Assembly (NCBI RefSeq): GCF_017377715.1
Contig: NZ_JAFVMF010000012.1
Coordinates: 62,001 to 126,000 of the forward strand
Length of the DNA: 64,000 bases
Direction of reading: 5' to 3'
Source of the DNA: Acetobacter sacchari
Lineage (GTDB): Bacteria; Pseudomonadota; Alphaproteobacteria; Acetobacterales; Acetobacteraceae
In this document: piece after piece, positions 45,472 to 62,500 of the stretch
How positions within the stretch are numbered: the stretch's first letter is position 1
Layout of the letters: every line of letters begins with the position of its first letter
Program-made: the position numbers and the translations under genes
Notes under the pieces: model-generated
Told to the model about the DNA's origin: nothing
Databases searched by the model: none
The model's input: only the letters and a program-made list of their open reading frames with translations

Positions 45472-46329
45472 GTGGCGACGCCCGTCTCCGATGCCGCCAC
45501 AGAGGCCCAGCCCGTCTCCGCCAATAACGGTGGCCTGCGCGCCTTCATTGACAATCACCAGCGAATCTTCGTGCTGACCGGCGCCGGATGCAGCACCGAA
45601 TCGGGCATCGCCGATTACCGTGACGAGAGCGGCGAATGGAAACGCCCCCAACCGGTCACCTTTCAAGCGTTCATGAAAGACGAGGCCGTGCGCCGCCGAT
45701 ACTGGGCGCGTAGCCTGATCGGCTGGCGACAGCTCAGCGTCGCGCGCCCCAACGCCGCACACTGCGCATTGGCCGCACTGGAAGCGCGTGGTCAGTGCGA
45801 AACGCTTCTGACACAGAACGTGGACGGACTGCACCAAGCCGCCGGAAGCCGTAACGTGATCGACCTGCATGGACGTATCGACGCAGTCCGCTGCATGAGT
45901 TGCGAGCAAACCAGCCGCCGCCGTGACCTCCAGCCGCTGCTGTTCGACCTTAACCCCGACTGGGCGTCGCTCGACGCGACCAATGCGCCGGACGGAGACG
46001 CCGATCTCGACGGACTAGATTTCTCGACGTTTCGCATTCCTTCGTGTCCACAGTGCGGCGGCGTCCTGAAGCCTGACGTTGTGTTCTTCGGTGAAAACGT
46101 GCCGTCCGAAAGACGAGACGCAGCGTTGGCGCATCTGGCGCACGCGCACGCCGTGCTCGTCGTTGGCTCTTCACTGATGGTCCAGTCCGGTTATCGCTTC
46201 GTCGCCAGGGCAGCCGCCGCCGGGCTTCCGATCGCATCCGTAACGACCGGACGCACGCGGGCCGACGCGTTGCTGACGCTCAAGGTTTCGGAGCCTTGCG
46301 GTGCGGCGCTTTCATTTCTGTTGCCCTGA
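45472..46329 (+). CDS. Sir2-family NAD-dependent protein deacetylase
   Basis: 285-residue sirtuin. NAD site GAGCSTESGIADYRDE, catalytic histidine in VIDLHGR following LTQNVDGLHQ, and a zinc ribbon with CMSC and CPQC. Acceptor and NAD loops DVVFFGENVP and VVGSSLMVQSGY are present. Closer to SIRT4-like class II enzymes than to CobB. The GTG at 45472 is 4 bases after GGAG; the frame extends further into the DUF3224 gene. The stop codon lies exactly where similarity to the IS remnant begins, so the last few residues may be altered by insertion. Confidence 0.88.
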   Translation: MATPVSDAATEAQPVSANNGGLRAFIDNHQRIFVLTGAGCSTESGIADYRDESGEWKRPQPVTFQAFMKDEAVRRRYWARSLIGWRQLSVARPNAAHCALAALEARGQCETLLTQNVDGLHQAAGSRNVIDLHGRIDAVRCMSCEQTSRRRDLQPLLFDLNPDWASLDATNAPDGDADLDGLDFSTFRIPSCPQCGGVLKPDVVFFGENVPSERRDAALAHLAHAHAVLVVGSSLMVQSGYRFVARAAAAGLPIASVTTGRTRADALLTLKVSEPCGAALSFLLP

Positions 46330-46895
46330 GCGTCAGGGGAATCCGTATGAGACGATCTGCGGCGCTTCTTCCTCGCCAGGCTCAGGGCTCATTCTTTAAG
46401 ATAGAGGATGAAGCTTGCTACGATATGGATTGCGGCCATGAATGTGTGAACGCAGCGGTCGTATCGTGTTGCGACACGTCTCCTGTCCTTGAGTTTTGCG
46501 AACATATTTTCGATCAGGTGGCGCTTTTTGTAGAGATGCCGGTCGTAAGAAGGCTTTGATTTCCGGTTCTTCTTCGGCGGGATATCAGGCGGTGATATTG
46601 CTTTCCGCGAGAGACTGTCTGATCCGGTTGCTGTCATAGCCCCGGCCTCCGATGACTCAATTCTGTCTCATCCGGCGAATCTGTCAGCCGAACGCCTGCC
46701 CGTTTTGACGGAGGGAGCGGATGTCCGGTGTGCTTTCAGATGTGTCGCATCGATCATCAGGCGCCCGGAACGGCCAGCCTGCTCCATCAGGGCGACAAAG
46801 ATCCGGCCAAAGACGCCCAGACGGCTCCATCGGGTAGGCCTGTGAATCACAACAGCCAGCTCAGTTCGATGAATTAACAGGCCCTGAGCCTAAGT
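46323..46895 (-). mobile_element. Decayed IS5-like insertion sequence, copy 1
   Basis: About 570 bp related along its whole length to 49375-50284. On the minus strand 46668-46850 encodes transposase middle (RWSRLGVFGRIFVALMEQAG, LMIDATHLKAHRTSA) and 46389-46637 the end (YDRHLYKKRHLIENMFAKLK, ending ILYLKE), but in separate frames. Relative to copy 2 it lacks two blocks (127 and 211 bp). Not functional. Ends are estimated from where the two copies stop matching. Confidence 0.75.
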
Positions 46896-49046: not shown

Positions 49047-49381
49047 ATGCTGACTGAAGTGCCGGCTATTCATGTGGGTCAGACTCCCGCTACGGCGGTT
49101 TGAACAGAGTGTGCGATCTATGGCTGCTGGACGCAGCGCTGTTTCGATTGCAGACCGGGTCTTATGCGGAACTGGTCGAAGAAGAGGCGGCAGCCCTTTG
49201 GGAAAGCCTGCCGCAGAATCACTCGTTCATCGACGGCAATAAACGCGCTACTTTTACCGTGATCTGGATCGTTCTGGTGATTAACGGGACCCGGTGGACC
49301 GCCAACGCTCAAGGCACGGAAGATTTCCCGCTAGGTCTCTATGTTACTGGCACATTCAGGCTGGGGATTCTGCCGCCCTGA
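49047..49381 (+). pseudogene. Truncated Fic/Doc (death-on-curing) toxin gene
   Basis: From the ATG at 49047 the frame reads MLTEVPAIHVGQ and stops. After a shift near 49080 it continues YGGLNRVCDLWLLDAALF to the Fic signature HSFIDGNKRATF (family HPFxDGNKR) near 49220-49255. The C-terminus after GTFRL is replaced by IS copy 2. Doc kinases phosphorylate EF-Tu. The signature is intact, but the N-terminal frameshift and lost end make function unlikely. Confidence 0.65.
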
Positions 49382-50284
49382 GTGTTAGGGCAATCCGCAT
49401 GAGACGATCTGCGGCGCTTCTTCATCGCCAGGCTCAGGACTCATTTTTCAAGATAGAAGATGAAGCTTGCTGCGATGTGGATTGCGGACATGAATTTGTA
49501 GCGCAGCGGTCGTATCGTGTTGCGACACGTCACCAACCTTTAGGCTTTGCGACATATTTTCGATTAGATAGCGCTTTTTTAGAGATGCCAGTCGTAAGAA
49601 GGCTTGGATCTCCGGTTCTTCTTCGGCAGGATATCAGGCGGTGATATTGCGTTCCGCGAGAGACTGTCTGATCCGGTTGCCGTCATAGCCCCGGCCTCCG
49701 ATGACTTCGTTCTGTCTCATCCGGCAAATCTGTCAGCCGAACGCCTGCCCTTTTGAAGTCACTGACCTGGTTCGCTGTCAGATGTAGCCGAACCAGGCGG
49801 CCCTGAACGTCGCATACGGCATGGAGATTTGAGTTCAGGCCGCCTTTTGCCCGTCCGAGATGGCGGGGAAAAGCCTTTTTTGAAGGAGTAAGGCGGATGT
49901 CCGACGTGCTTTCAGATGTGCCGCATCGATCATCAGGCGCCTGGAACGGCCAGCCTGCTCCATCAGGACGACAAAGATCCGGTCAAAGGCACCCAGACGG
50001 TCCCATCGGGTAAAACGGTCGTATAAGATCCTTTACGGATCTTAGGTTTTCGGAATATATTTCCATTGAAGACCGTTGCGGATCACATAAAGAATCCCAC
50101 TCAGAACCCGCCTGTCGTCCACACGCGGCACGCCATGCGCCAAAGGAAAATACGGCCTGATCCGTTCCATCTGGCGTTCAGAAAGTAAAAATATCTCACT
50201 CACAACCTCACCTCCCTCGGGTAAGCCTGTGAATCACAACAGCCAACTCAGTTCGTCGAATTAACGAATCCTGAGCCTAAGTCC
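49375..50284 (-). mobile_element. Decayed IS5-like insertion sequence, copy 2
   Basis: About 910 bp, the fuller copy. The minus strand begins MSEIFLLSERQMERIRPYFP and LSGILYVIRNGLQWKYIPK, then meets stop codons. RWDRLGAFDRIFVVLMEQAG, LMIDAAHLKAHRTS and the C-terminal ISPPDILPKKN region follow in other frames. At least two frameshifts separate the parts, so it is dead. It truncates the doc gene on its left. Ends estimated; GGCTCAGGACTCAT (left) and GGCTCAGGATTCGT (right, reversed) resemble terminal repeats. Confidence 0.75.
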
Positions 50285-50582: not shown

Positions 50583-52481
50583 CTAAAGTAATTGTGCGGT
50601 AGTTCCCTCCTCTTCTGTAGCGGAAGGAGGCTCGCAACGCCCGCCCAACCACTGCGTCAGAAATTCTTCCGCAATTCTGTAAAATGAGAGTCGATTGGGA
50701 TCCCTTTGAAAACCATGTCCCTCATCGGGATACAGGACGTAGGTTACGGGAACATCACTCTCACGCATCGCCTGCACCATCAGACGGGACTCACTTTCGG
50801 GCACGCGAGGGTCATTTGCGCCCTGCCCAATGAGCAGGGGCCGCCGGATATCTTTCGCACGATAGATGGGGGAGCGATCCCTCAGAAGTTTGGCTCCCTC
50901 GGCAGTTCTGGGATCGCCAAGAGCGCTGTACAGCATCGCCCTTTGGGATTCCCAATAGGCGGGGATAGCCTCGAGCAGCGATTCCAGATTGCTCGGCCCA
51001 ACAATATCAATCCCACATGCGTAACGCTCAGGGTGGCGGGTCAAAGCAGACAGGACCGCGTAGCCGCCATAACTTGCGCCCATAATGCCAAGCCTGAGCG
51101 GATCGGCGTAACCTTTTTCAATCGCCCATTGGACGGCGTCTTCAAGGTCATCATCCATCGACGCCCCCCACTGAAGATTTCCGGCCTCGATAAAAGCCTT
51201 GCCGAAACCTGTGGAAGATCGGAAATTTACAGAGAGTGCAGCGTAACCGCGATTGGCGAGCCACTGATGCACGGGCTCAAACGTCAAATTATCTCTAACC
51301 CATGGCCCTCCGTGTACAACCAGCACAAGAGGAGGTGGCTCAGCAGGTGTCGTGCCTTTCGGCAGCGACAGATAGGAAACCAGCGACAAGCCGTCGCGTG
51401 ATTGCAACACATGCGGCGTCATCTCTACGAGAGGCGCTTCATTCAGTTCCGGCCTCACGTCGTACAGAAGGCGAACAGATTTGTTATGCCTGTCGTAAAG
51501 ATACACAGAGCCAGGACGGGTGTCCGCCCGCAAGCCGACGGTCCACCATTGATCGTCGACGCTCCGGCTCAGCACACTCCAGCCTCGGCCGACGCTGTTA
51601 TCTAAAATTTCGAAATCGCGGAGAAGCGTGGAATTGAGCGGTACAATCTCTCTTTCGGTATAATTAACAAAATAGGCGAGTGGTTCGTAAGTAACCGGAT
51701 CGCCTATGTAACCGTTGATATCCGCACGGCTATCCGATGCAAGAACTGACTCCTCTCCCGTGGATAAGCTGACCGCAAGAAGCGCCGCCGTGTCTCGACC
51801 CTGGCTATCAACCAGGTAGACAGTATCGGCATTTTTGTTCAGGCCCACCACCTGCGAGACACGCGCATCATCAAGGGCGAAGCGTCTCCAGAGTGTCCAC
51901 TCCTCCGTAATGGATTTTCGCATAAGCGAAATAGAGCCATCCTTATCAGTCACCGCCCCCAGTATAATATTGAAAAAATCATCGAATAAAAACCAGTCAA
52001 TGGACGAATTTTGAAAAACAAGCTCTTTCGATCCTGTTTTTAAATTGACAATGTAAACATCGGAATACTGACTTTTTACGTTCGCCTGGTAGATTAAAAT
52101 TTCATCTGGTCGAAATCGACTGGTCGCAGCAACACTCGCTCGTATATTTTCACCGGGTGTCAGATCGCGAACAACTGGCCCGGCCGCACCCTCCATGTGG
52201 TTAACGGCAAAAATGCGCCAATTCTCGTCCCCATCGGTATCCGCCCCATATAAGAGGTGTTCATTGTCATGACACCAGGAAAACGAAAAAATCCCACGGA
52301 CCCTATCATTTGTAATGCATCTTGCTTTCGTCAAATCCGACCGGGGCGCGACCCAAATATTGGAAACGGAATCGATCGGGCTTGTCCACGCGAGAAAATT
52401 TCCATTTGGAGAAAGAATGCAGGGCGAATTTTCTGGGTTACCGAACAGAAAAGCACGAGGGATAAGTGAAATTTCAGTCAT
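50583..52481 (-). CDS. S9-family prolyl oligopeptidase-type peptidase, cytosolic
   Basis: 632 residues. N-terminal about 1-370 is a beta-propeller (FLAWTSPIDSVSNIWVA, GSVYLYDRHNKSVRLLY); about 385-620 is the alpha/beta-hydrolase domain. Triad: S470 in GASYGGY, D557 in GANDPRV and H589 in DEGHGF. VVHGGPWVRDN supplies the oxyanion region. No signal peptide, so it acts in the cytosol on short peptides. The ATG at 52481 overlaps the thioredoxin-fusion stop by 8 bases; a frame from 52511 has no site. Last gene of the TonB-ABC-Trx-peptidase operon. Lasso-peptide isopeptidases belong to this family, but those I know of are exported. Confidence 0.85.
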   Translation of the reverse strand: MTEISLIPRAFLFGNPENSPCILSPNGNFLAWTSPIDSVSNIWVAPRSDLTKARCITNDRVRGIFSFSWCHDNEHLLYGADTDGDENWRIFAVNHMEGAAGPVVRDLTPGENIRASVAATSRFRPDEILIYQANVKSQYSDVYIVNLKTGSKELVFQNSSIDWFLFDDFFNIILGAVTDKDGSISLMRKSITEEWTLWRRFALDDARVSQVVGLNKNADTVYLVDSQGRDTAALLAVSLSTGEESVLASDSRADINGYIGDPVTYEPLAYFVNYTEREIVPLNSTLLRDFEILDNSVGRGWSVLSRSVDDQWWTVGLRADTRPGSVYLYDRHNKSVRLLYDVRPELNEAPLVEMTPHVLQSRDGLSLVSYLSLPKGTTPAEPPPLVLVVHGGPWVRDNLTFEPVHQWLANRGYAALSVNFRSSTGFGKAFIEAGNLQWGASMDDDLEDAVQWAIEKGYADPLRLGIMGASYGGYAVLSALTRHPERYACGIDIVGPSNLESLLEAIPAYWESQRAMLYSALGDPRTAEGAKLLRDRSPIYRAKDIRRPLLIGQGANDPRVPESESRLMVQAMRESDVPVTYVLYPDEGHGFQRDPNRLSFYRIAEEFLTQWLGGRCEPPSATEEEGTTAQLL

Positions 52482-53673
52482 TTTTTTCTTCGATACTCTT
52501 GAAGTAATCAATCGAATTCAGAACAGAATAGGGGAGCTGAACACTTATGGCGTTGCTCGCCGAACGACCGCGCTGCATGACGCTGTTATATTCCGTCCAT
52601 ACGCGAGGATGCGTCTTTTTCAACCGATCATGACCATTCGCAATAATCAAATGAGCCTTTTCATGGTGACGCTCCTTTTCTTCCGGATCAGCGGGACAAC
52701 TGCCAAGGGTTGCAAATTCCTCCCTTGTTTTCGCAAACATTTCTTCCATCTCCTTCTTTTTGTGAATTTTTTCATAACGAAATGAATGATCAAATTCAGA
52801 TATTGTTTCTACGTATTTTCTAATATTATAAATATCCGGATTAAGAAGCGCCGTTGACGTGTCCAGGACCAAAAAACGGGCGGAATTATAATCACCCGAA
52901 ATCTTATTTTTCACGTCCGAGACAATTTCTTCAATTTTTTCGCTGAAATCATCAACTTCGCCGTAATAAATTTCTTCCATAAGGGTCAAAAAATCACAAA
53001 ACCATGACCCGTCAGAAAAAATCCCGTTGGTCAAAAATTTCAAATAATCTATGCAATCATTAAAGCTCATTATCAGAAAACGGAGGTAAAACGCCCTCAA
53101 ATCCAGCTTTGCAGGCATCACCAAGACTATATGCTCATAGTGGTTGCGCAAAACGTCTATCGGACTTTTGACGAAAATTTCGTGGATTAGGTCTTTTACA
53201 TCGTTGTCAGATATCGCCAAAGAAAGGACGTCAGACAATTCTTTGTTTATTTCATCAATATTTTTACAAGCACTCGATACACGGGAATTCAATTCGTCAC
53301 TGTTATCGCCGTTCCAAATAATTATTTTTGATTCTTTTTCACCGTGATGTCCCTTCTGTGCAGCGTCAATAGCTGATTGTATGGACTCAGGCGACAACCC
53401 CGAAGTGCGAAACACCTCACGCCCACGATCGAACACAATGAGAGCAGGTATAGACCTAATATTTAGTACAGATGAACCATAATTATTTTCATCAGTATTT
53501 ACTTTAACAAATAAAATTTTATCTGAATATTTTTCGGCGGCTTTTTTTAGTCGCGGCAAGCCCGCCACGCACGGCGCGCACCAAGGCGCCCAGAAATCCA
53601 CGATTACCGGCCCGACTTGATGTTCCAGTTCGTTCAAAAAGAACGCGTTATCAACTTCTCTTATTTCCATCAT
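52474..53673 (-). CDS. Thioredoxin domain fused to an unrecognised C-terminal domain
   Basis: 399 residues. 1-105 is a complete thioredoxin: VDFWAPWCAPC (W31-C35, WCAPC in place of WCGPC) and cis-proline P76 in IRSIPAL. From about 110 to 399 comes an acidic, mostly helical region I cannot assign (LRNHYEHIVLVMPAKLDL, FLILMSF-like helices, and a late Glu/Lys/His-rich coiled segment EKERHHEKAHLI). No signal peptide or membrane helix, so cytosolic. AT-rich codons. Start overlaps the ABC gene stop (ATGA) and its stop overlaps the peptidase start, giving tight coupling. Likely reduces disulfides of an imported substrate; inference. Confidence 0.78.
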   Translation of the reverse strand: MMEIREVDNAFFLNELEHQVGPVIVDFWAPWCAPCVAGLPRLKKAAEKYSDKILFVKVNTDENNYGSSVLNIRSIPALIVFDRGREVFRTSGLSPESIQSAIDAAQKGHHGEKESKIIIWNGDNSDELNSRVSSACKNIDEINKELSDVLSLAISDNDVKDLIHEIFVKSPIDVLRNHYEHIVLVMPAKLDLRAFYLRFLIMSFNDCIDYLKFLTNGIFSDGSWFCDFLTLMEEIYYGEVDDFSEKIEEIVSDVKNKISGDYNSARFLVLDTSTALLNPDIYNIRKYVETISEFDHSFRYEKIHKKKEMEEMFAKTREEFATLGSCPADPEEKERHHEKAHLIIANGHDRLKKTHPRVWTEYNSVMQRGRSASNAISVQLPYSVLNSIDYFKSIEEKND

Positions 53674-55409
53674 ACGTTTCCATACGTCAAGGTTTTTTCA
53701 GTTACGGTTCGATCGCTGAGTTCCAGAATATGATCGTAGAATTGCGTGGGTTCAACACGATGTGAAATGCTGATTATGCCAGAATTTGACAATCTTTCGC
53801 GAAAAATATGATAAATTTTCGCTTCGTTTTCCATGTCAAGCGCGCTTGTCGCTTCGTCCAGGAAAACAAAATCAGGTTTTTTCAGTAAAATCCTTATGAG
53901 TGCAATTCTCTGTCGCTGTCCGGGAGAAAGAACGTCCTGCCATTTTTCTGTTTCGTGCAGCCTGAAAGAGAGCTCCCACAAATCGAACAACGCGAGCGCT
54001 TCCTCGCAATCCTGATCAGATACAGTTTCCTGATCGTCGGGATAGACGAGCGCCGCTTTCAGAGTCCCGCGCGGCATGTATGATTCCTGCGGCAGCATTG
54101 CGATTGCGCTGCCTTCCGGAGCGTTGATCTCACCGTCGCTATACGGCCAGATGCCTGCGAGCGCACGGAATAAAGTGCTTTTACCCGCACCAGAGGCGCC
54201 TTTCACCCATATCCTGTCCCCCCTTCTGACGGAGAACGTGGCGTCGTTTATGAGAGTATCTCCGTTGGGAAGATTGACCGACACTCCCTCAACGATCAAA
54301 TCAGAAATCGACCGAGTTCCGCGCACAGTCGTCACGACAGCATCTGCAGCTTTGATGGCCGCATTCATCTCAGACACACGGGTAACCACCGCCCTATAAT
54401 TCTGAATTCCGGAAAAGTTGTTGGCGATCCACATCATGGAATGCGAAATCATCGTAACGCTTCCCGACACCCGCATCATATCGCTGAAAGTGATACCGCC
54501 CGAGAAATAGCGCGGCATCAGAAATACATCGATAACGATCCCGGTCAGCCATGATATGATCCCAGTAACAGGAGTGAATTTTAGGTGGAATAAATACATT
54601 TTTAAATTTGACAAAAATGCGTCGTCAAAATCTTTATCCAACCTCGCAATTTCAGCCGTATTTCCCCGAATAAGGGCGATTTGCTCCGAGTATTTTCGAA
54701 CCATTGCTGTAGAGAATCGAAAACTCGCCTCCCTGTGCTGCAAATTTATTGTATAATTGAGAAGATTTTTTCCAAAAGCGACGGTGACAATGGTCGCCAA
54801 CATTGACCATAAAAATGACAACATAAATGTTCCGCCCGGGACGCGATAATCGTGGCCGTGATACCACAAATCCAGGGGACCTCCTTTTGTAATAGCGATG
54901 TAGGAAAAGGTTACGAGACTGGAAAGCGTGCCAACCAAACCGAAACTAAGGTCGATTGTCTTGGAGGTGAACTGATTACAGTCCTCCGCAATGCGTTGAT
55001 CAGGATTATCAAGATTTTCAAATCGTTCTATTTTATAGAATGAGTTTTTTTCGATCCATTTTTTTATCATATCCTTGGTGAACCAACTTCTCCAGAGCAA
55101 CGAGAGCAACGCCGTCACAAACGTAACAACTGCACCAAAAGTCACCACGAAGCTTTCAACGAAAAAATTTCTCAACATTGCGGAAACCCAGTGCGCGCCG
55201 TCGCGATTCTGGATTACTTCAGCATAATTACTCATGGCCGCATTAGACAACGTATAGCAGTACGTCTGAAAAAAAGTTAACCCTATAAGGAGGGCGGCCA
55301 GACCATAACGAACGAATATGCGTTCCCTGGAACCCCAATAGCCGATGCTGATTCCCCATATATTTCCCATCAGGCTGTTCCTCCTGAATGGTATTTTTCC
55401 TTTTAACAT
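53670..55409 (-). CDS. SbmA/BacA-like permease fused to an ABC ATPase (BclA/YddA type)
   Basis: 579 residues. About 1-350 is the six-helix SbmA/BacA-like permease with the family motif LDNPDQRIAEDCNQF (133-147). About 370-575 is the nucleotide-binding domain: Walker A GASGAGKST (404-412), signature LSPGQRQR (from 494), Walker B FVFLDEATSALD (from 514). Relatives BclA (Bradyrhizobium) and Rv1819c import peptides, bleomycin or cobalamin; YddA is uncharacterised. AAAAGGATGTAGT precedes the ATG at 55409. Second gene of the operon, 102 bases after the TonB receptor; that gap holds no credible precursor peptide. Confidence 0.85.
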   Translation of the reverse strand: MLKGKIPFRRNSLMGNIWGISIGYWGSRERIFVRYGLAALLIGLTFFQTYCYTLSNAAMSNYAEVIQNRDGAHWVSAMLRNFFVESFVVTFGAVVTFVTALLSLLWRSWFTKDMIKKWIEKNSFYKIERFENLDNPDQRIAEDCNQFTSKTIDLSFGLVGTLSSLVTFSYIAITKGGPLDLWYHGHDYRVPGGTFMLSFLWSMLATIVTVAFGKNLLNYTINLQHREASFRFSTAMVRKYSEQIALIRGNTAEIARLDKDFDDAFLSNLKMYLFHLKFTPVTGIISWLTGIVIDVFLMPRYFSGGITFSDMMRVSGSVTMISHSMMWIANNFSGIQNYRAVVTRVSEMNAAIKAADAVVTTVRGTRSISDLIVEGVSVNLPNGDTLINDATFSVRRGDRIWVKGASGAGKSTLFRALAGIWPYSDGEINAPEGSAIAMLPQESYMPRGTLKAALVYPDDQETVSDQDCEEALALFDLWELSFRLHETEKWQDVLSPGQRQRIALIRILLKKPDFVFLDEATSALDMENEAKIYHIFRERLSNSGIISISHRVEPTQFYDHILELSDRTVTEKTLTYGNV

Positions 55410-55511
55410 ACTACATCCTTTTTGAATTAAATCTTAATTGTTTTTATTTGGAAAGTATCGGTGTGCAGTATCATGTCGGGTACGCGTATCGACAGAAATT
55501 TTCTTCATCAG

Positions 55512-57923
55512 TCAATAATCGTTGTAAGTCATTGTTAACATGATCGTCCGACCGAGAAGCATCTGCACGGCGTTGCTGTAAGCATAGTCCCCATACAACT
55601 TGGAATTGAGTAAGTTTTTAAAGCCAAGGTTCATAGAAATATTTTTCTTCTTGTAGAAAACACTTAAATCGACACTCTGTTGCGACGGCATCCGGTATGC
55701 CTTTGCGCCACTTACCTCACCGGACGCCCCTCCGAGATAACCTGACCTCCCGGTAACGCCGACGCCTATGCCAAAACCAGGAAGCGCCCTAAAGCCAATG
55801 TCGTACGTCGCCCAGACGCTGTAGGTTTCTTTCGGAACTTTTCCAAGAAATTGAGACATTTGATTAGAAACGTTTTTCTTTACATTTGTGTAACTGAAAT
55901 TCGCAATCACACTCAATCCAGTGAACAACTTGCCAGTCACGTTGAAATCGACACCTCGCGTTGTTTGTCCAGATGGCGATATGATGTAATATAAGCTAGG
56001 AAAATTTGAATAAGGCGTATTATTTGCACTCGCCTTATAAATATCAGACGATACTTGGAGACGTCTCGAAAACCATTCAGTTTTCACGCCCGCCTCAATC
56101 GTTTTGCCCCGACTTGGCGCGGCGACGCTGTTCGCACTGGTGCGATACGAGCTTTGATCGTTAAAGCTACGCATATAATTCGCGTATAAATTTATATTTT
56201 TTGTTAAATTTATAACTCCGCCTATGTTTGGTAGCCATTGTGTGCGTGCGTGCGGCGTGCTTGGCTCGCCGTAACCAAACGATATAACGTTCCTTATATG
56301 GGCCCTCGTGATACTGGCTAATATATGGAATCTAGAAAACATTGTTATCTGATCTTGCAATGAAATTTGATTCTGCCTTGTATACTGAGGACTCCCCGCC
56401 CAGTTCGGTATTCCTCTCACCTTGGGCAAATATACTTCGGTCAACGGAGCCGCCTCTGTGTAAGCAGATCCAAATGCGCCCGCAAATATATTTGTCGAAT
56501 TTTGGTAAGAAAAATTCGCAACTACATTCTGACTCACCGGTCCTGTTATGATTTTCTTTTTTAACGTGACAGATCCGCTATACGCGATGGTTTTACTGCG
56601 TTGCCCTTGAGCCACATACGCTCCAGTTCCATCAACGTTATAAAGAATATAACTCCATATTTTTGCAATCTGATCTGTACGCTGATACTGACCCTTAACT
56701 TCCAACTGAATGCCTAGCGGTAAATTCTGAGTAAAATCAAAATATGGTGTTTGATTGTTTGAGTAATTGCTTTCACTGCGATTTCCCAATGGACGGCCTA
56801 TTCGCACAGGTCCGGCTAAACCTAAATACGTCGTTACTGCCGGAGGATTTCTCTGCGAATTAACCTCATACCCGATCGTCACATCTGTTGCGTCGAATTT
56901 CCATCGCAGCGACGGCGCCACATAGCCTATTTTCTTGCCTTCGTATCCAAGATACGACGTTGCCGCCCGATTACCTGAAATCAGAAAACGTCCCATGAAA
57001 TGTTTATCCGTCGTGAATGCGCCGCCGTAATCGGCGGAAATCAGCCCATCTCCAAACGTTGCAATTTGCGCATTTACCTGCAGCGTTTTTTCCTCTTCCG
57101 GTCGCTTGCGCACTACGTTCACCACCCCGCCGGGCTGGGAATTTCCTGCCAGGATAGAATCTGCTCCTTTAAGAACGTCAATTCTTGCAATGCCAATTGC
57201 AGGCATCGTAATGCCCGAGGAAGACGAAGTTGAGTCCGCCTGATTCAATCCGTCCGTAGTGACTGCAGCAGTAAATCCGCGCGCGACGATCGTATCCACA
57301 CCGGCTGTTCCCGTTGCCGCCCCTATCGTAATGCCGCTCACCCGCCGCAAGGTGTCTTCCACGGTAATGGCTTGCGTGCTTGTAATAACGTCCCGCGTAA
57401 TGACGGACACTGACTGCGGCGTATCCATCAGCGACGTATCGGTGCGCGTCGCTGATCCGCTGTTTGTTGCTACAAAACTTTTTACGACGCCGCGCACTTC
57501 CAGATATTCAGCCGGACTTAACGCAGTCACAGAGTCCGGAGTCCTCCTGGTTTCTTGCGACGTATCCAGAGGATGCGCGAGGATATTGATCGGCTGAACG
57601 GTCAATCCGCCTGCGGAAGTCCGAAATAATTGCAGCCCAGTTCCCTGCAGGGCGCGATTGATCGCCCCATACGTGCTGAGACGCCCAACAACGGCCGCCG
57701 CCTTCTTGCCCGCGACAAGTTCCGGGCGGTAGGCGAGCGCAGTTCCGGTCTGCTCGGATATCGCGATGAGAGTGTCGTCCAGCGCGCCTGCGGGTATATT
57801 AAAATCCTTCAGAACAATACCGACGGAATCTGTTTGCGCGCAGGCAGGCTGCAAACACGTTCCCATACAAGACAGCAATATTATGGCTAGCGTCAGTCGC
57901 GGGCGCAGAAGACGTAAGGTCAT
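55512..57923 (-). CDS. Signal-transducing TonB-dependent receptor with STN domain
   Basis: 803 residues. Signal peptide MTLRLLRPRLTLAIILLSCM with cleavage after ACAQ. STN domain about 35-110 (FNIPAGALDDTLIAISEQTG, AINRALQGTGLQLF). TonB box EYLEVRGV near 140. Plug about 160-290 with DTPQSVSVITRD and RIDVLKGADSILAGNSQPGG. Barrel to the end (TMTYNDY). STN domains touch a FecR protein in the periplasm to activate a FecI sigma factor, and fecI-fecR lie divergently next door. ATG 57923 starts the signal peptide; the frame upstream has only a TTG. FecA/FpvA-like architecture; the ligand need not be iron. Confidence 0.9.
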   Translation of the reverse strand: MTLRLLRPRLTLAIILLSCMGTCLQPACAQTDSVGIVLKDFNIPAGALDDTLIAISEQTGTALAYRPELVAGKKAAAVVGRLSTYGAINRALQGTGLQLFRTSAGGLTVQPINILAHPLDTSQETRRTPDSVTALSPAEYLEVRGVVKSFVATNSGSATRTDTSLMDTPQSVSVITRDVITSTQAITVEDTLRRVSGITIGAATGTAGVDTIVARGFTAAVTTDGLNQADSTSSSSGITMPAIGIARIDVLKGADSILAGNSQPGGVVNVVRKRPEEEKTLQVNAQIATFGDGLISADYGGAFTTDKHFMGRFLISGNRAATSYLGYEGKKIGYVAPSLRWKFDATDVTIGYEVNSQRNPPAVTTYLGLAGPVRIGRPLGNRSESNYSNNQTPYFDFTQNLPLGIQLEVKGQYQRTDQIAKIWSYILYNVDGTGAYVAQGQRSKTIAYSGSVTLKKKIITGPVSQNVVANFSYQNSTNIFAGAFGSAYTEAAPLTEVYLPKVRGIPNWAGSPQYTRQNQISLQDQITMFSRFHILASITRAHIRNVISFGYGEPSTPHARTQWLPNIGGVINLTKNINLYANYMRSFNDQSSYRTSANSVAAPSRGKTIEAGVKTEWFSRRLQVSSDIYKASANNTPYSNFPSLYYIISPSGQTTRGVDFNVTGKLFTGLSVIANFSYTNVKKNVSNQMSQFLGKVPKETYSVWATYDIGFRALPGFGIGVGVTGRSGYLGGASGEVSGAKAYRMPSQQSVDLSVFYKKKNISMNLGFKNLLNSKLYGDYAYSNAVQMLLGRTIMLTMTYNDY

Positions 57924-58165
57924 GTTGAGGTCGCTGCCTATGGTGAAAACGAATTTGCACCTGACTTGATGAACGACCCGACGAAAGTGACATGCCGAAA
58001 TGAAAATAATGTTCTCCAATCGAATTAAATATTTTAATCGTTGACTTTAAAAAAATTTTATGTGACGCAAGTTTTTTGCTTCATATGGTGGCAAAGAAAT
58101 GGGCGCTATCATGATGCTATTTACCCGGACCCCATCGGTCCACGCTTCGCCTCCGAGAGCTGGAA
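57924..58165. promoter_or_regulatory. Divergent promoter region between receptor and fecI
   Basis: 242 bases, AT-rich around 58022-58062. It contains a near-palindrome AATTAAATATTTTAATC (58023-58039) and TTGACT (58041-58046). It should hold the ECF-sigma-dependent promoter of the receptor and the promoter of fecI; I cannot define either box with confidence. Confidence 0.4.
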
Positions 58166-58714
58166 ATGGATGATTACGGAGTAAATATTGATTCTGTGTC
58201 GCTGGAGGCTATCTTCCGTCGGCATCACTCTTGGCTGGTGCAAAGGCTCACGAGAAAAGCGGGTAGCAGAGATCGCGCTGAGGAACTCGCAAGCGAGGTG
58301 TTCGCCCGCGCCGCCGCAAGCGGCAGCCAGATAAACGAACCCCGTGCATTTCTCACAATTGTCTCACGCCGTCTTATGGAGGAGTTCCGCAGGAGAACCT
58401 TGCTTGAGGCGAGCTATACCCGCGCTTTACAGTCATTGCCGGAGACAGTTCGCCCTTCACAGGAAGAGCAACTTGAACATGCGCAGACTCTGGCTCTGGT
58501 TGAGTCTGCGCTCGCCGGACTGTCAGCGAAAGCGCGCGCCGCATTCATTTTCGCAAGAATCGAAGGGGTTCCGCATAGTCAAATTGCGTATAAGCTTGGG
58601 GTCTCCGTAAGCTCCGTAAGAAAATATATCGATCGCGGGGATCAGTTGTGTCGCGAATCCTTAAGGGCGCGCGCAGACGGACACACGACAATATCGGGGC
58701 TCCCGCGTGAGTGA
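58166..58714 (+). CDS. FecI-type ECF RNA polymerase sigma factor
   Basis: 182 residues with sigma region 2 (LEAIFRRHHSWLVQRLTRKAGSR-like helix, then ELASEVFARAAAS) and region 4 (ALAGLSAKARAAFIFARIEG, SQIAYKLGVSVSSVRKYIDRG). This is the iron-starvation sigma subgroup, controlled by a FecR partner and an STN-type receptor, both adjacent. The ATG at 58166 follows GAGAGCTGGA. The stop overlaps the fecR start by 8 bases (GTGAGTGA). Confidence 0.88.
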   Translation: MDDYGVNIDSVSLEAIFRRHHSWLVQRLTRKAGSRDRAEELASEVFARAAASGSQINEPRAFLTIVSRRLMEEFRRRTLLEASYTRALQSLPETVRPSQEEQLEHAQTLALVESALAGLSAKARAAFIFARIEGVPHSQIAYKLGVSVSSVRKYIDRGDQLCRESLRARADGHTTISGLPRE

Positions 58715-59507
58715 TTCGGACGACCACGAATTCCAAACACGGCTGGCTGGTTTAGGCGCCAGCCTGAACGGGCGGTCAATAGGGGACGAGTATCTCAAAC
58801 TGCACCGCAGGCGCAGCTTTCTAAAACGCGGCGCACTAATAGCAGGAGTGGGATTGTCGTCTACGCTGGGGGTTGAAATGATTCAACCGGCCCACGCTGA
58901 TGTGATGACGGCTGCGGGTGAAACCAGAACTGTTTCTTTTGCACAAACAGAATTACTTGTTGGACCGCTTACTGCGCTCAATCTGCGAGACGACGCTTCA
59001 CAGCCGTCAATCGAATTACTCTCAGGCAGAGTGTTGGGCTCCTGCCCGCCGGACGCATCGCCCCCGCTACTGCGCATTACTGGACGATTTGGAGCCGTTC
59101 TTTCCGCTCGGCAGAGTTTCTGTCTTCACCTGAGTCGCAAGGAATTCACCGCCGCGTCGCCAGACAATGCCTGTTTCACCGCCCGGTCCGGACGGACTTA
59201 CGTACTTGCTGCGGGAACAGAGCTCCAGATGACTGGTGAGAAAATTGTTATGGCGCCGAAAAGCTGGGGAGCGTCGTCGGCCTGGAAGAACGGCTTTCTG
59301 GTTTGTCAGGATGCGCCTTTGGGTAGATTGCTCGACAATCTGTCTGCGTATTGGAGTGGATACATTTATGCCTCCAACGAGATTCGCGCGCGACGCGTGT
59401 CGGGCTCGTTTTCGGTTTCGAATCCCATGCAGACCCTTTTGGAGATAGGCTCGATTTACAATGTCGTTGTCAGACAATATCCTTTTGGAGTCGTCTACTT
59501 GAGCTAA
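58707..59507 (+). CDS. FecR-type transmembrane sigma regulator with Tat-like signal
   Basis: 266 residues. A short cytosolic N-terminus (about 33 residues) lacks the usual Trp-containing DUF4880 pattern. RRRSFLKRG (34-42) followed by a hydrophobic segment matches the twin-arginine motif, which has been reported for FecR export. The periplasmic part has the FecR fold, and the C-terminal about 70 residues (GRLLDNLSAYWSGYIYASNE, VSGSFSVSNPMQTLLEIG) are the STN-like region that meets the receptor. Five cysteines are unusual. GTG start at 58707. Operon with fecI. Confidence 0.83.
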   Translation: MSDSDDHEFQTRLAGLGASLNGRSIGDEYLKLHRRRSFLKRGALIAGVGLSSTLGVEMIQPAHADVMTAAGETRTVSFAQTELLVGPLTALNLRDDASQPSIELLSGRVLGSCPPDASPPLLRITGRFGAVLSARQSFCLHLSRKEFTAASPDNACFTARSGRTYVLAAGTELQMTGEKIVMAPKSWGASSAWKNGFLVCQDAPLGRLLDNLSAYWSGYIYASNEIRARRVSGSFSVSNPMQTLLEIGSIYNVVVRQYPFGVVYLS

Positions 59508-59674: not shown

Positions 59675-61075
59675 TCAAACCACCCCCTCACACGCCAGCT
59701 CCTCCCGTCGAACCAACGCCTCCGAGACCACCGAAAGCGCCATCGCGAGCGACGTACGATCATCCGGAGCGCCCAGGCATAGCCGCAGGCCTGAATCCGC
59801 ATCCTGCGACACAGCCGACGCATCGGGCGGCGTCAACTCGACCCCGCTGCGCAACGCACGCGCAGCCACCTGCTCTGCCGCCAGAGGCGAGAGAGGCAAC
59901 CACACATGCGGCGAACATGGGCCGCCGGGTTGCGTCATCGCCGTTCCAAGCGCCGCCTGCGCCATCGCGAACCGGGCCGACGTTTCCTTACGCACATCCG
60001 CCATGATCGCGTCGACGCGTCCGTCCGCCACCCATTGCGAGAACACCAACCCACCCAACGCCGGGGGGCAATATCCCAGCGCCCTCACGCCGCGCAGCAT
60101 TCTTTCGACCGGAAACAATTGCGGCAACACAAGGAACGCCAGCCTGAACCCCGGGCAGACGCCCTTGGACAGACTGGCGAGGTAGATCGTTCGCTCCGGC
60201 GCGAACTGTGCGATCTGCGGCGGCTTACCCGAGTATGAGTAATAGGCGTCGTCTTCGAGAATCAGAAGATCGCGCGCACGGGCGACCTCCGCGATTTCCT
60301 TCCGCCTCTGAACCGACATGGTGCGGGACGTCGGATTATGCAGCGTCGGCACTGTGAACAGCAGACGCGACCGCGTTTCGGCCGCCGCGCGGTCGAGCGC
60401 CTCTGGCGACAATCCCTCCGCATCCATCGCGACGCCACGCATGGCGATTCCGAAGTGTTCGGCGGCCATCCGTGCGCCGTAGAAGGTCGAGGATTCGCAC
60501 AGCACCGTATCGCCGGGGCGACAGAGAGATGAAAAAACCAGCGCCAGCGCGTGCTGACCACCGTTGCACTGCACCAGATCGCCTGCCTGGACCTGCAAGC
60601 CGAACTGTCGGTCCAGCCACAACGTCGCCGCCTCCCGCACCGCTGGCAATCCCGCTCCCTGCACGTACTGCAACGCCGGTTCGAGAACACCGCGCACAGC
60701 AAGGTCAGCCAACGCGGCGTTCAGAGCCCCGACAAGTGACACCGGAGGGGGCGTATTGCACCGCAGATCAACGACGCTGCGATCTTGGGCGATCATCGCC
60801 CCCCTCTCCCGGGTCGGCACATCGCGCAGAGGGTCGGCCTGCGCACGCACGAACGACCCTCGACCAACATGGGCCGACAGCAATCCACGCCGCTCCGCCT
60901 CGGCGTACGCCCGCGTTACGCTGCCGACGCTGACGCCTAGACGAAACGCCAGTTCCCGTTGCGGCGGAAGCCTCTCCCCGGCGGAAAGGACGCCTGCGCG
61001 CATGTCGTGATCTATGGCGCTGACAAGGCGCTCATAAAGCGGAGCGTGGCCGTCGGGTAACTCGGGCGTCCACAT
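59675..61075 (-). CDS. MocR/GabR-type transcription regulator with aminotransferase domain
   Basis: 466 residues. Winged helix of GntR type, about 10-78 (LSAGERLPPQRELAFRLGVSVGSVTRAYAEAE), then a fold-type I aminotransferase domain, about 105-460. PLP lysine in ASLSKGVCPGFRLAF; LILEDDAYYSYSG holds the PLP Asp/Tyr. Such proteins sense an amine or PLP compound and usually control an adjacent divergent gene. AGGAGGTG precedes the ATG. Divergent from the UrcA-like/PhzF pair, with paired direct repeats between them. Confidence 0.9.
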   Translation of the reverse strand: MWTPELPDGHAPLYERLVSAIDHDMRAGVLSAGERLPPQRELAFRLGVSVGSVTRAYAEAERRGLLSAHVGRGSFVRAQADPLRDVPTRERGAMIAQDRSVVDLRCNTPPPVSLVGALNAALADLAVRGVLEPALQYVQGAGLPAVREAATLWLDRQFGLQVQAGDLVQCNGGQHALALVFSSLCRPGDTVLCESSTFYGARMAAEHFGIAMRGVAMDAEGLSPEALDRAAAETRSRLLFTVPTLHNPTSRTMSVQRRKEIAEVARARDLLILEDDAYYSYSGKPPQIAQFAPERTIYLASLSKGVCPGFRLAFLVLPQLFPVERMLRGVRALGYCPPALGGLVFSQWVADGRVDAIMADVRKETSARFAMAQAALGTAMTQPGGPCSPHVWLPLSPLAAEQVAARALRSGVELTPPDASAVSQDADSGLRLCLGAPDDRTSLAMALSVVSEALVRREELACEGVV

Positions 61076-61648: not shown

Positions 61649-62500
61649 ATGACGACTGCACTGCCATTTCTTCAGGTCGACGTATTCGCCTCCACGGCGT
61701 TCCGCGGCAATCCGCTCGCCGTCATCGCCGGAGCCGATGCGCTGAGCGCTGCCCAGATGGCTCAGATCGCCAACTGGACGAATCTGAGCGAGACGACGTT
61801 CATCCTCAAACCCAGAGATCCACAAGCAGATTATCATGTCCGCATTTTCACGCCGCACGGGGAGCTTCCCTTCGCCGGGCACCCAACGCTTGGCACGGCC
61901 CACGTTTGGCGCACGCTCGGTGGGCAACCGAAAAGCGACGTCATCATGCAGGAATGCGGCGTCGGTCTGGTGCCTGTGCGTGAACGGGAGGGACGCTTTT
62001 CTTTCGCCGCTCCACCCCGTCGGCGCAGCGGCCCGGCCGACGCAGCGACCGTAGCCAAGGCGGCCGCTGCGTTGCGGCTGAACGCCGGAGACGTGATCGC
62101 AGCAGAATGGGCCGATAACGGCCCCGGCTGGCTGGCGTTACGCCTACGCTCACGCGAAGCGGTGCTGGCGGTGCAACCGGACTGGAACGCATTCGACGGG
62201 ATGAAATTGGGGCTCGTCGGCGCATGGGACCCGGCGCGCGACGGAGATGCGGCGCAATTTGAAGTCCGCGCGCTGTACAGTGAAGGAAACGGAAGAGGAT
62301 TTGAAGATCCCGTCACCGGCAGCCTGAATGCGGCGATCGCGCAATGGCTTATCGGCGGAGGATTCGCGCCGTCACATTATATCGCCAGCCAAGGCGCAGT
62401 GCTTGGACGCGCCGGACGCGTCTTCGTCGAGCAGGACGAAGGCAATATCTGGATCGGCGGCACCGTCGTCACGAGAATTCATGGAACGATCACGCCCTGA
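61649..62500 (+). CDS. PhzF-family isomerase
   Basis: 283 residues of the PhzF/diaminopimelate-epimerase fold, two similar halves. Active-site Glu in NLSETTFIL near 47. RIFTPHGELPFAGHPTLGTAHVW is the family signature with the HPTLG loop, and EDPVTGSLNAAIAQWL closes the second half. PhzF isomerises a phenazine precursor, but most relatives lie outside phenazine clusters and have unknown substrates; no other phz genes are here. Possibly controlled by the divergent MocR protein. Confidence 0.88.
   Translation: MTTALPFLQVDVFASTAFRGNPLAVIAGADALSAAQMAQIANWTNLSETTFILKPRDPQADYHVRIFTPHGELPFAGHPTLGTAHVWRTLGGQPKSDVIMQECGVGLVPVREREGRFSFAAPPRRRSGPADAATVAKAAAALRLNAGDVIAAEWADNGPGWLALRLRSREAVLAVQPDWNAFDGMKLGLVGAWDPARDGDAAQFEVRALYSEGNGRGFEDPVTGSLNAAIAQWLIGGGFAPSHYIASQGAVLGRAGRVFVEQDEGNIWIGGTVVTRIHGTITP

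Follow-up and report, generated by a model that had tools for sequence, protein, structure and literature searches.

A mobile Acetobacter sacchari locus that may import a peptide or small protein and degrade it in the cytosol

The locus described here lies in a 64,000-nucleotide stretch of Acetobacter sacchari DNA (NCBI RefSeq assembly GCF_017377715.1, contig NZ_JAFVMF010000012.1, forward-strand positions 62,001 to 126,000; hereafter the window), and the nearest described kind of machinery, judged from the available portions of PMC6793856, PMC5095587 and PMC13253070, is the protease-associated import of Fus/YddAB-PqqL. Fus (FusABCD) and YddA-YddB-PqqL combine in one locus a TonB receptor, a fused ATP-binding cassette (ABC) protein of the YddA/FusD family and a protease, as does the window locus; YddA is called a FusD homologue in the accessible part of PMC5095587. 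One sister locus (L017) has an M16 protease, as PqqL-type systems do. In contrast to Fus and PqqL-YddAB, the window receptor is of the siderophore type with no significant BLASTP similarity to YddB, neither an M16 protease beside the receptor nor a TonB homologue is present, and the protease family and compartment differ, with a thioredoxin and a leaderless S9 peptidase in the window and an all-helical domain (here termed Hel) and cysteine catabolism in sister loci. Since the receptor family and the M16 protease do not match, we regard the locus as an instance of TonB/ABC protease-associated import that lies outside the Fus family. A term search did not find "thioredoxin" in the main text of PMC6793856 as available to us; the same text mentions other proteases near some FusA homologues and suggests cytochrome c peroxidases as redox partners for others, so that import aided by redox chemistry has a precedent as an idea.

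According to the available text of PMC5567381, BclA, an ABC protein with an SbmA_BacA domain, imports cysteine-rich NCR (nodule-specific cysteine-rich) peptides. The window ABC protein shares the SbmA_BacA transmembrane domain with BclA, BacA and SbmA, and its ATPase is fused as in BclA. The Bradyrhizobium BclA locus is said, in that portion of PMC5567381, to have no further transporter component genes, whereas the window adds genes for an outer-membrane receptor, sensing and degradation. FecI-FecR-FecA signalling with FoxA/FpvA-type receptors is resembled in the divergent fecI-fecR pair and in the probable STN signalling domain of the receptor; unlike that arrangement, the window FecR falls under the Pfam cut-off and has no DUF4880 match in a Pfam scan (the FecR of sister locus L016 has both domains), and the receptor operon continues into ABC, thioredoxin and S9 genes. 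Among the matches listed from the open-licence PMC literature, no thioredoxin/TldDE/S9 import locus is described by title or abstract.

We propose that these genes form a single mobile module by which a peptide or small protein is imported and then destroyed in the cytosol, a reading to which we assign a probability of about 0.6. A first-pass annotation, made from the sequence alone, had already read the locus as a self-contained unit for sensing, importing, reducing and digesting a peptide, possibly a disulfide-bonded, lasso or cyclic one and possibly metal-binding, for nutrition, siderophore-peptide use or defence. Recurrence elsewhere, the involvement of FecI/FecR, and reduction with digestion were supported by the present analysis; self-containment, a lasso or cyclic substrate, a metal-binding peptide and defence were not.

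Gene set and its recurrence

An open reading frame (ORF) check of the window confirmed six genes, with the coordinates, strands and 8-, 4- and 8-base overlaps first assigned to them. On the minus strand lie the genes for a TonB-dependent receptor (55512-57923), a YddA/FusD/BclA-type ABC permease-ATPase (53670-55409), a thioredoxin with a C-terminal extension (52474-53673) and an S9 prolyl-oligopeptidase-family peptidase (50583-52481). The ABC gene ends at 53670 and the thioredoxin gene starts at 53673, an overlap of 4 nucleotides, and the latter ends at 52474, 8 nucleotides into the S9 gene that starts at 52481. On the plus strand, fecI (58166-58714) and fecR (58707-59507) overlap by 8 nucleotides, from the fecR start at 58707 to the fecI end at 58714. 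The intergenic region between the two divergent units (57924-58165) is the expected site of the receptor and fecI promoters.

Chance does not account for this gene set, because the same neighbours recur in distant genomes. A receptor, a YddA/FusD/BclA-type ABC protein and a thioredoxin occur together in 20 other alpha-, beta- and gammaproteobacterial loci, which gives 21 with the window. Genes were detected in these loci by BLAST against reference genes from system loci, and all locus counts report what was found; they vary with where contigs stop and with the searches used, and are no census. A plasmid search with the ABC protein and the receptor returned a stretch from Paraburkholderia caribensis in the order TonB-ExbB-ExbD-receptor-ABC-thioredoxin-Hel-FecI-FecR. 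Further loci lie in two Sphingomonas, in Novosphingobium (where the ABC gene spans the record start), in Burkholderia glumae and B. cenocepacia, on a second P. caribensis plasmid and in Methylobacterium currus, and four sampled genomes (G910, G865, G907 and G1013) hold the system as well. The GTDB genome collection was also scanned with two S9 peptide patterns. Among the best 80 of 136 confirmed loci, nine are systems, from an Acidovorax metagenome-assembled genome (MAG), two Paracidovorax, a Lysobacterales MAG, Stenotrophomonas, Rhodanobacter, Luteimonas, Paucibacter and Acidovorax Leaf160 (identical with G910). None of the 71 other S9 loci in this set, 57 of which have more than 5 kb of upstream sequence, combines a receptor, a YddA-type ABC protein and a thioredoxin. 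The first-pass annotation had named a lack of co-occurrence of thioredoxin, ABC protein and S9 peptidase elsewhere as grounds for refutation; the three were found together beside a TonB receptor in other genomes, and the S9 peptidases of nine sister loci fall in one clade with that of the window.

ABC and thioredoxin genes are present in all 21 loci and a receptor gene in 20, the contig of L087 starting just before its ABC gene. FecI/FecR, which had been expected to accompany the import set, does so in 8 of the 21 (about 13 kb apart in L021), and TonB-ExbB-ExbD in 12. The peptidases vary: S9 enzymes were found in ten loci, TldD/TldE in seven, M16 and S8 in one each and M3 within a few kb in six (with two more at 7-9 kb), and two loci (L016 and L020) have no recognised peptidase. 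Thioredoxin reductase is encoded in three of the 21 loci and a cysteine-degrading enzyme in eight, namely a Cds1-like cysteine desulfhydrase in seven (one of them a short ORF) and an IscS-like desulfurase in one. Two Cds1-like members score 542 and 518 bits against an NCBIfam cut-off of 600 and the IscS-like enzyme 444 against 548; a weak cysteine-synthase-like match in L087 (89 bits) was left out of the Cds1-like count. Domain fusions also link the parts, with thioredoxin joined to Hel in six loci and Hel to the S9 peptidase in eight of the nine S9 sister loci.

Such neighbours were absent around the best plasmid match of the S9 peptidase (Phyllobacterium, L024) and around ABC matches in Acetobacter (L022) and Bradyrhizobium (L023), which were rejected as systems. 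In an Anaerolineaceae MAG (L155:7533-9837), a thioredoxin gene directly precedes an S9 gene, and receptor and YddA-type ABC genes are absent.

Transporter, peptidase and thioredoxin-linked domains

The 579-residue ABC protein matches PF06472 (9.4e-36), SbmA_BacA (PF05992, 1.9e-14, 54.3 bits against a cut-off of 24) and the ABC_tran domain (PF00005). In a tree that also held 26 of 38 non-system ABC neighbourhoods, L022, L023 and E. coli YddA (the ABC proteins of L013/L014, L180 and L181 were left out), it falls in a clade with support of 99/97 that contains all 18 system ABC proteins tested and only two non-system rows, L045 and L046. YddA is a distant row outside this clade; FusD itself was left out of the comparison. 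L045 and L046, from the window's own family, are the nearest sisters of the window ABC protein (97/88), and no thioredoxin gene lies within the 6.1 and 16 kb fetched around their ABC genes. In both (L045:150-3651 and L046:3835-8579) the ABC gene adjoins a second ABC gene, and in L046 a YcaO cyclodehydratase gene (PF02624, 2e-26) follows, possibly as part of a cluster for a ribosomally synthesized and post-translationally modified peptide; the ABC pair there may therefore handle a modified peptide. The ABC gene beside YcaO in L046 could serve export or immunity, and exporter ATPase models are among the NCBIfam matches of the window ABC protein, which raises the question of whether that protein exports and the six genes form a chance operon of imported parts. 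We consider this very improbable, given its SbmA_BacA/ABC_membrane_2 family and the fact that such proteins are linked time and again, in the 20 other loci, with TonB receptors and peptidases.

The S9 peptidase has 632 residues and a PF00326 domain (5.8e-41) with a Ser-Asp-His triad at S470, D557 and H589, which we take from family knowledge to be its catalytic residues. As first annotated, it has no recognisable leader, in that hydropathy detects no strongly hydrophobic N-terminus. Together with the S9 peptidases of nine system loci it forms one branch with a support of 99/100, apart from 32 other S9 rows that represent 31 of the 71 non-system S9 loci and L024, with L158 and L162, also of the 71, as outgroup. 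In a rough hydropathy comparison, the N-terminus was clearly hydrophobic in four out of six outside S9 proteins and in none of the system S9, thioredoxin, M3, TldD and S8 proteins that were checked.

An S9 enzyme beside FecI/FecR invites comparison with lasso-peptide scavenging, in which an Atxe2-kind isopeptidase would open the imported peptide. FecI/FecR and a TonB receptor are known from lasso loci, and the Atxe2 family, itself of S9 type, is the best NCBIfam match of the window enzyme (NF033523, 86.6 bits), just above dipeptidyl-peptidase Dpp5 (83.9 bits). That score is, however, far under the cut-off of 400 bits, no isopeptidase appears by name among the 25 PDB matches at E 1e-10, and the window enzyme differs from Atxe2 in being leaderless and in its neighbours. 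To our knowledge, the usual lasso locus includes neither a thioredoxin nor an ABC importer. Lasso-peptide scavenging of this kind is accordingly highly unlikely, and the lasso or cyclic substrate raised in the first-pass annotation is not supported.

The thioredoxin occupies about residues 1-105 of its protein (PF00085, 5e-21, residues 6-103) and carries a WCAPC site that is presumably its redox-active centre, as in the family. The remainder, an orphan extension of about 290 residues that is probably all-helical, gave no Pfam match (E 0.1) or NCBIfam match (E 0.01), and samples of 298 other genomes from the family and 384 others from the class yielded no match at E 0.001. It lies where Hel would be expected and is similar to it in length.

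Hel is an all-alpha domain of about 290 residues that accompanies the thioredoxin in all 20 other loci. It is a separate gene in six (L013, L016, L017, L018, L025 and L096), the C-terminal part of the thioredoxin in six (L019, L020, L021, L081, L180 and L181) and, in the eight S9 sister loci mentioned above, the portion with which the S9 protein begins. Two copies are present in Stenotrophomonas MMGLT7 (L088:7359-9985; thioredoxin-Hel and Hel-S9) and in Rhodanobacter PCA2 (L089:8102-9973; Hel and Hel-S9). The Hel part has no Pfam match at E 0.01 in the four proteins scanned (L089, L151, L016 and L020) and no NCBIfam match at E 1e-10 in L089 and L151. Its AlphaFold model is confident and all-alpha (pLDDT 92.8, pTM 0.88), and a Foldseek search of the PDB returned no match at E 0.001 (258 at E ≤10, the best at E 0.55). 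A known fold was also sought with VIA-align, of which the best Z score, 7.4 over 84 residues, falls within the values quoted for helical models that are unrelated; this match may reflect a common helical arrangement, and the absence of a structural match does not prove a new fold. A search that disregarded neighbours detected Hel in five genomes of a phylum sample of 398, and four of the five are systems.

Sensing genes and horizontal insertion

The receptor has strong barrel (3.9e-26) and plug (1.1e-18) matches in Pfam and a strongly hydrophobic N-terminus by hydropathy, a feature that the S9 and thioredoxin proteins lack. It had first been labelled an STN-TonB receptor; the TonB receptor assignment stands, and the STN label proved weaker than claimed, at 22.2 bits under a Pfam cut-off of 28.4. 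The solved receptors CntO/FoxA and FpvA align with it from query residue 12 or 40 on, and it is 32% identical to the receptor of the P. caribensis system (E 1e-104).

FecI is an extracytoplasmic function sigma factor whose regions 2 and 4 exceed the Pfam cut-off (PF08281, 3.4e-12) and which is 39-44% identical to the FecI proteins of six sister loci; the NCBIfam FecI models all remain under their cut-offs (132.8 bits against 185 for a FecI subfamily). The FecR label is weaker than claimed: PF04773 scores 14.3 bits where Pfam sets its cut-off at 24, and the NCBIfam score is 54 bits against 385, yet BLAST links the protein to the FecR of L016 (E 7e-15). It has a short N-terminal part with a twin-arginine-like stretch, RRRSFLKRG. 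The divergent fecIR/receptor arrangement is common to the window, G865, G907 and G1013. In the intergenic region, the few hand-written patterns tried matched no FecI-like promoter toward the receptor and gave one loose FecI-like match on the fecI strand, at 57997.

The locus is horizontally inserted. The segment 46336-59672 (13.3 kb, 48.8% GC) is absent from the close relative G011, where flanks 91% and 86% identical to those of the window are separated by 1.37 kb (L171:8490-9861); the flanks have a GC content of 59.8 and 63.2%. Besides the six genes, the insertion holds a TPR (tetratricopeptide repeat)/GT41-type glycosyltransferase gene and two relic copies of an IS5-family insertion sequence (IS), found as direct repeats at 46316-46895 and 49368-50282, the first of which matches IS5-family transposase genes. 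The IS match records comprise Rhizobium (46), Acetobacter (30) and Komagataeibacter (8), with the best rows from Zymomonas, Acetobacter and Gluconobacter. A short ORF within the insertion (49100-49381) contains HSFIDGNKRATF, which we take to be a Fic/Doc motif, and looks like a fragment of such a gene. A MocR regulator gene at 59675-61075 was rejected as a part of the locus, as it lies in the chromosomal flank and has a 95% identical counterpart in G011, even though the insertion is missing there. MocR-like or pyridoxal phosphate (PLP)-aminotransferase-type regulators adjoin some sister loci (L017, L085, L086 and L151), and the adjacency in the window is probably coincidental because the gene belongs to the flank.

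Proposed function and its alternatives

From the families involved, we propose that the receptor binds a ligand outside the cell and that its probable STN domain would signal via FecR to FecI, which would switch on the receptor operon. The receptor, with TonB supplied from elsewhere in the genome, would bring the ligand into the periplasm, and the ABC protein would carry it into the cytosol. There, as the families and the missing leaders suggest, thioredoxin would reduce the disulfides of the ligand and the S9 peptidase would cut the reduced product. The ligand is most likely rich in disulfides or cysteine and most likely used as a nutrient, for sulfur, amino acids and perhaps iron, because sister loci add thioredoxin reductase, other oligopeptidases and cysteine desulfhydrase or desulfurase. 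The thioredoxin reductases (3 of 21 loci) and cysteine-catabolic enzymes (8 of 21) likewise strengthen the cytosolic reduction and digestion that had been suggested at first.

Several observations weigh against this reading. By BLAST against the reference genes, the window locus itself has no cysteine enzyme, thioredoxin reductase (TrxB) or TonB-ExbBD, and to call it self-contained was too strong, TonB-ExbB-ExbD genes being present in 12 of the 21 loci. The M16 protease of L017 has a hydrophobic N-terminus by hydropathy and is probably periplasmic rather than cytosolic, so that this locus probably cuts in the periplasm. In the accessible part of PMC13316013, the function of the YddA-family ABC protein is called unknown. 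YddA-like ABC genes are common (at E 1e-60, in 202 genomes of the family sample of 299 and in 78 of the 398 sampled from the phylum), and only 2 of the 40 best YddA-like ABC neighbourhoods, several of them on 4-7 kb contigs, are systems; for this reason the ABC protein alone is an uninformative anchor. The fifth Hel genome, G857, is without other system parts; there (L182:6510-10536) the Hel gene directly follows a different, 933-residue TonB receptor gene, and the ABC and thioredoxin genes found elsewhere are absent.

Three methods also detected no similarity between the extension of the window thioredoxin and Hel. The hhalign probabilities were 0.04 and 0.2%, HMMER with filters off gave -1.2 bits, and the profile alignment against 100 shuffles that recovered six left-out Hel members at Z 13.6-52.2 gave Z 0.57 for the extension, within the -1.1 to 2.1 of 11 negatives. 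Its AlphaFold2 model, for which the alignment included Hel rows, is all-helical and of low confidence, with block means of 33-45 over residues 111-200 and 70-86 over residues 311-370. An HP helix break before the long last helix is seen in both models (H355-P356 in the low-confidence window model and HP 259-260 in Hel), a shared feature that is only suggestive.

The receptor provides the last of these points. It resembles the receptors of small siderophores, grouping with FoxA, CntO, FpvA and FhuA, its best BLASTP alignment with the E. coli protein importer YddB (E 0.05 over about 100 residues) is not significant, and no FusA or YddB entry is among its 23 PDB matches at E 1e-6. Iron uptake is the classical role of FecI/FecR systems, and a ferric, perhaps peptidic, siderophore might be what the receptor and ABC protein import, with thioredoxin and the S9 peptidase only aiding iron release or ligand recycling. 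We consider such siderophore uptake unlikely, although it is the strongest of the competing explanations, since the loci repeatedly carry oligopeptidases of five families (S9, TldD/E, M3, M16 and S8) and enzymes of cysteine catabolism; a wholly peptidic siderophore is still conceivable as the ligand. Where neighbours of the plasmid loci are annotated, none is called a ferric reductase or a siderophore esterase, most other loci being unannotated and no dedicated search having been made.

The same import route could instead protect the cell, by taking up a toxic peptide such as a bacteriocin or antimicrobial peptide and destroying it in the cytosol. BclA/BacA uptake protects against NCR peptides in the account given by the available part of PMC5567381, and the YcaO gene and second ABC protein of L046 stand beside one of the nearest relatives of the window ABC protein. 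An outer-membrane importer with a positive sensing loop would nevertheless be an odd design for defence, the cysteine desulfhydrases point to nutrient use, and no PADLOC system was recognised, the six proteins giving no match beyond ABC ATPase cross-hits (mad3 and mad8). Protection, one of the roles offered in the first-pass annotation, is thus quite improbable.

Within the import-and-degradation reading, we tentatively suggest, as a possibility that we do not yet favour, a new import class in which a disulfide-rich peptide of a host or competitor, such as one resembling plant defensins or NCR peptides, or else a small iron-sulfur or cysteine-rich protein, would enter the cytosol intact and pass along a line of thioredoxin, Hel and peptidase to cysteine desulfhydrase. 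Defence peptides and proteins would then be eaten for sulfur, and Hel might link reduction with proteolysis by serving as a domain for docking or unfolding.

In these loci a YddA-type ABC protein keeps company with a receptor, a reductase for disulfides, peptidases that mostly have no leader, and cysteine catabolism, and this pairing therefore gives direct, testable hints on the direction and substrate of the YddA family. They also define a recurrent domain, Hel, that has a confident predicted structure (pLDDT 92.8) and no Pfam or NCBIfam model in the members scanned, and they suggest that the import of peptides or proteins through the two membranes extends beyond the Fus family.

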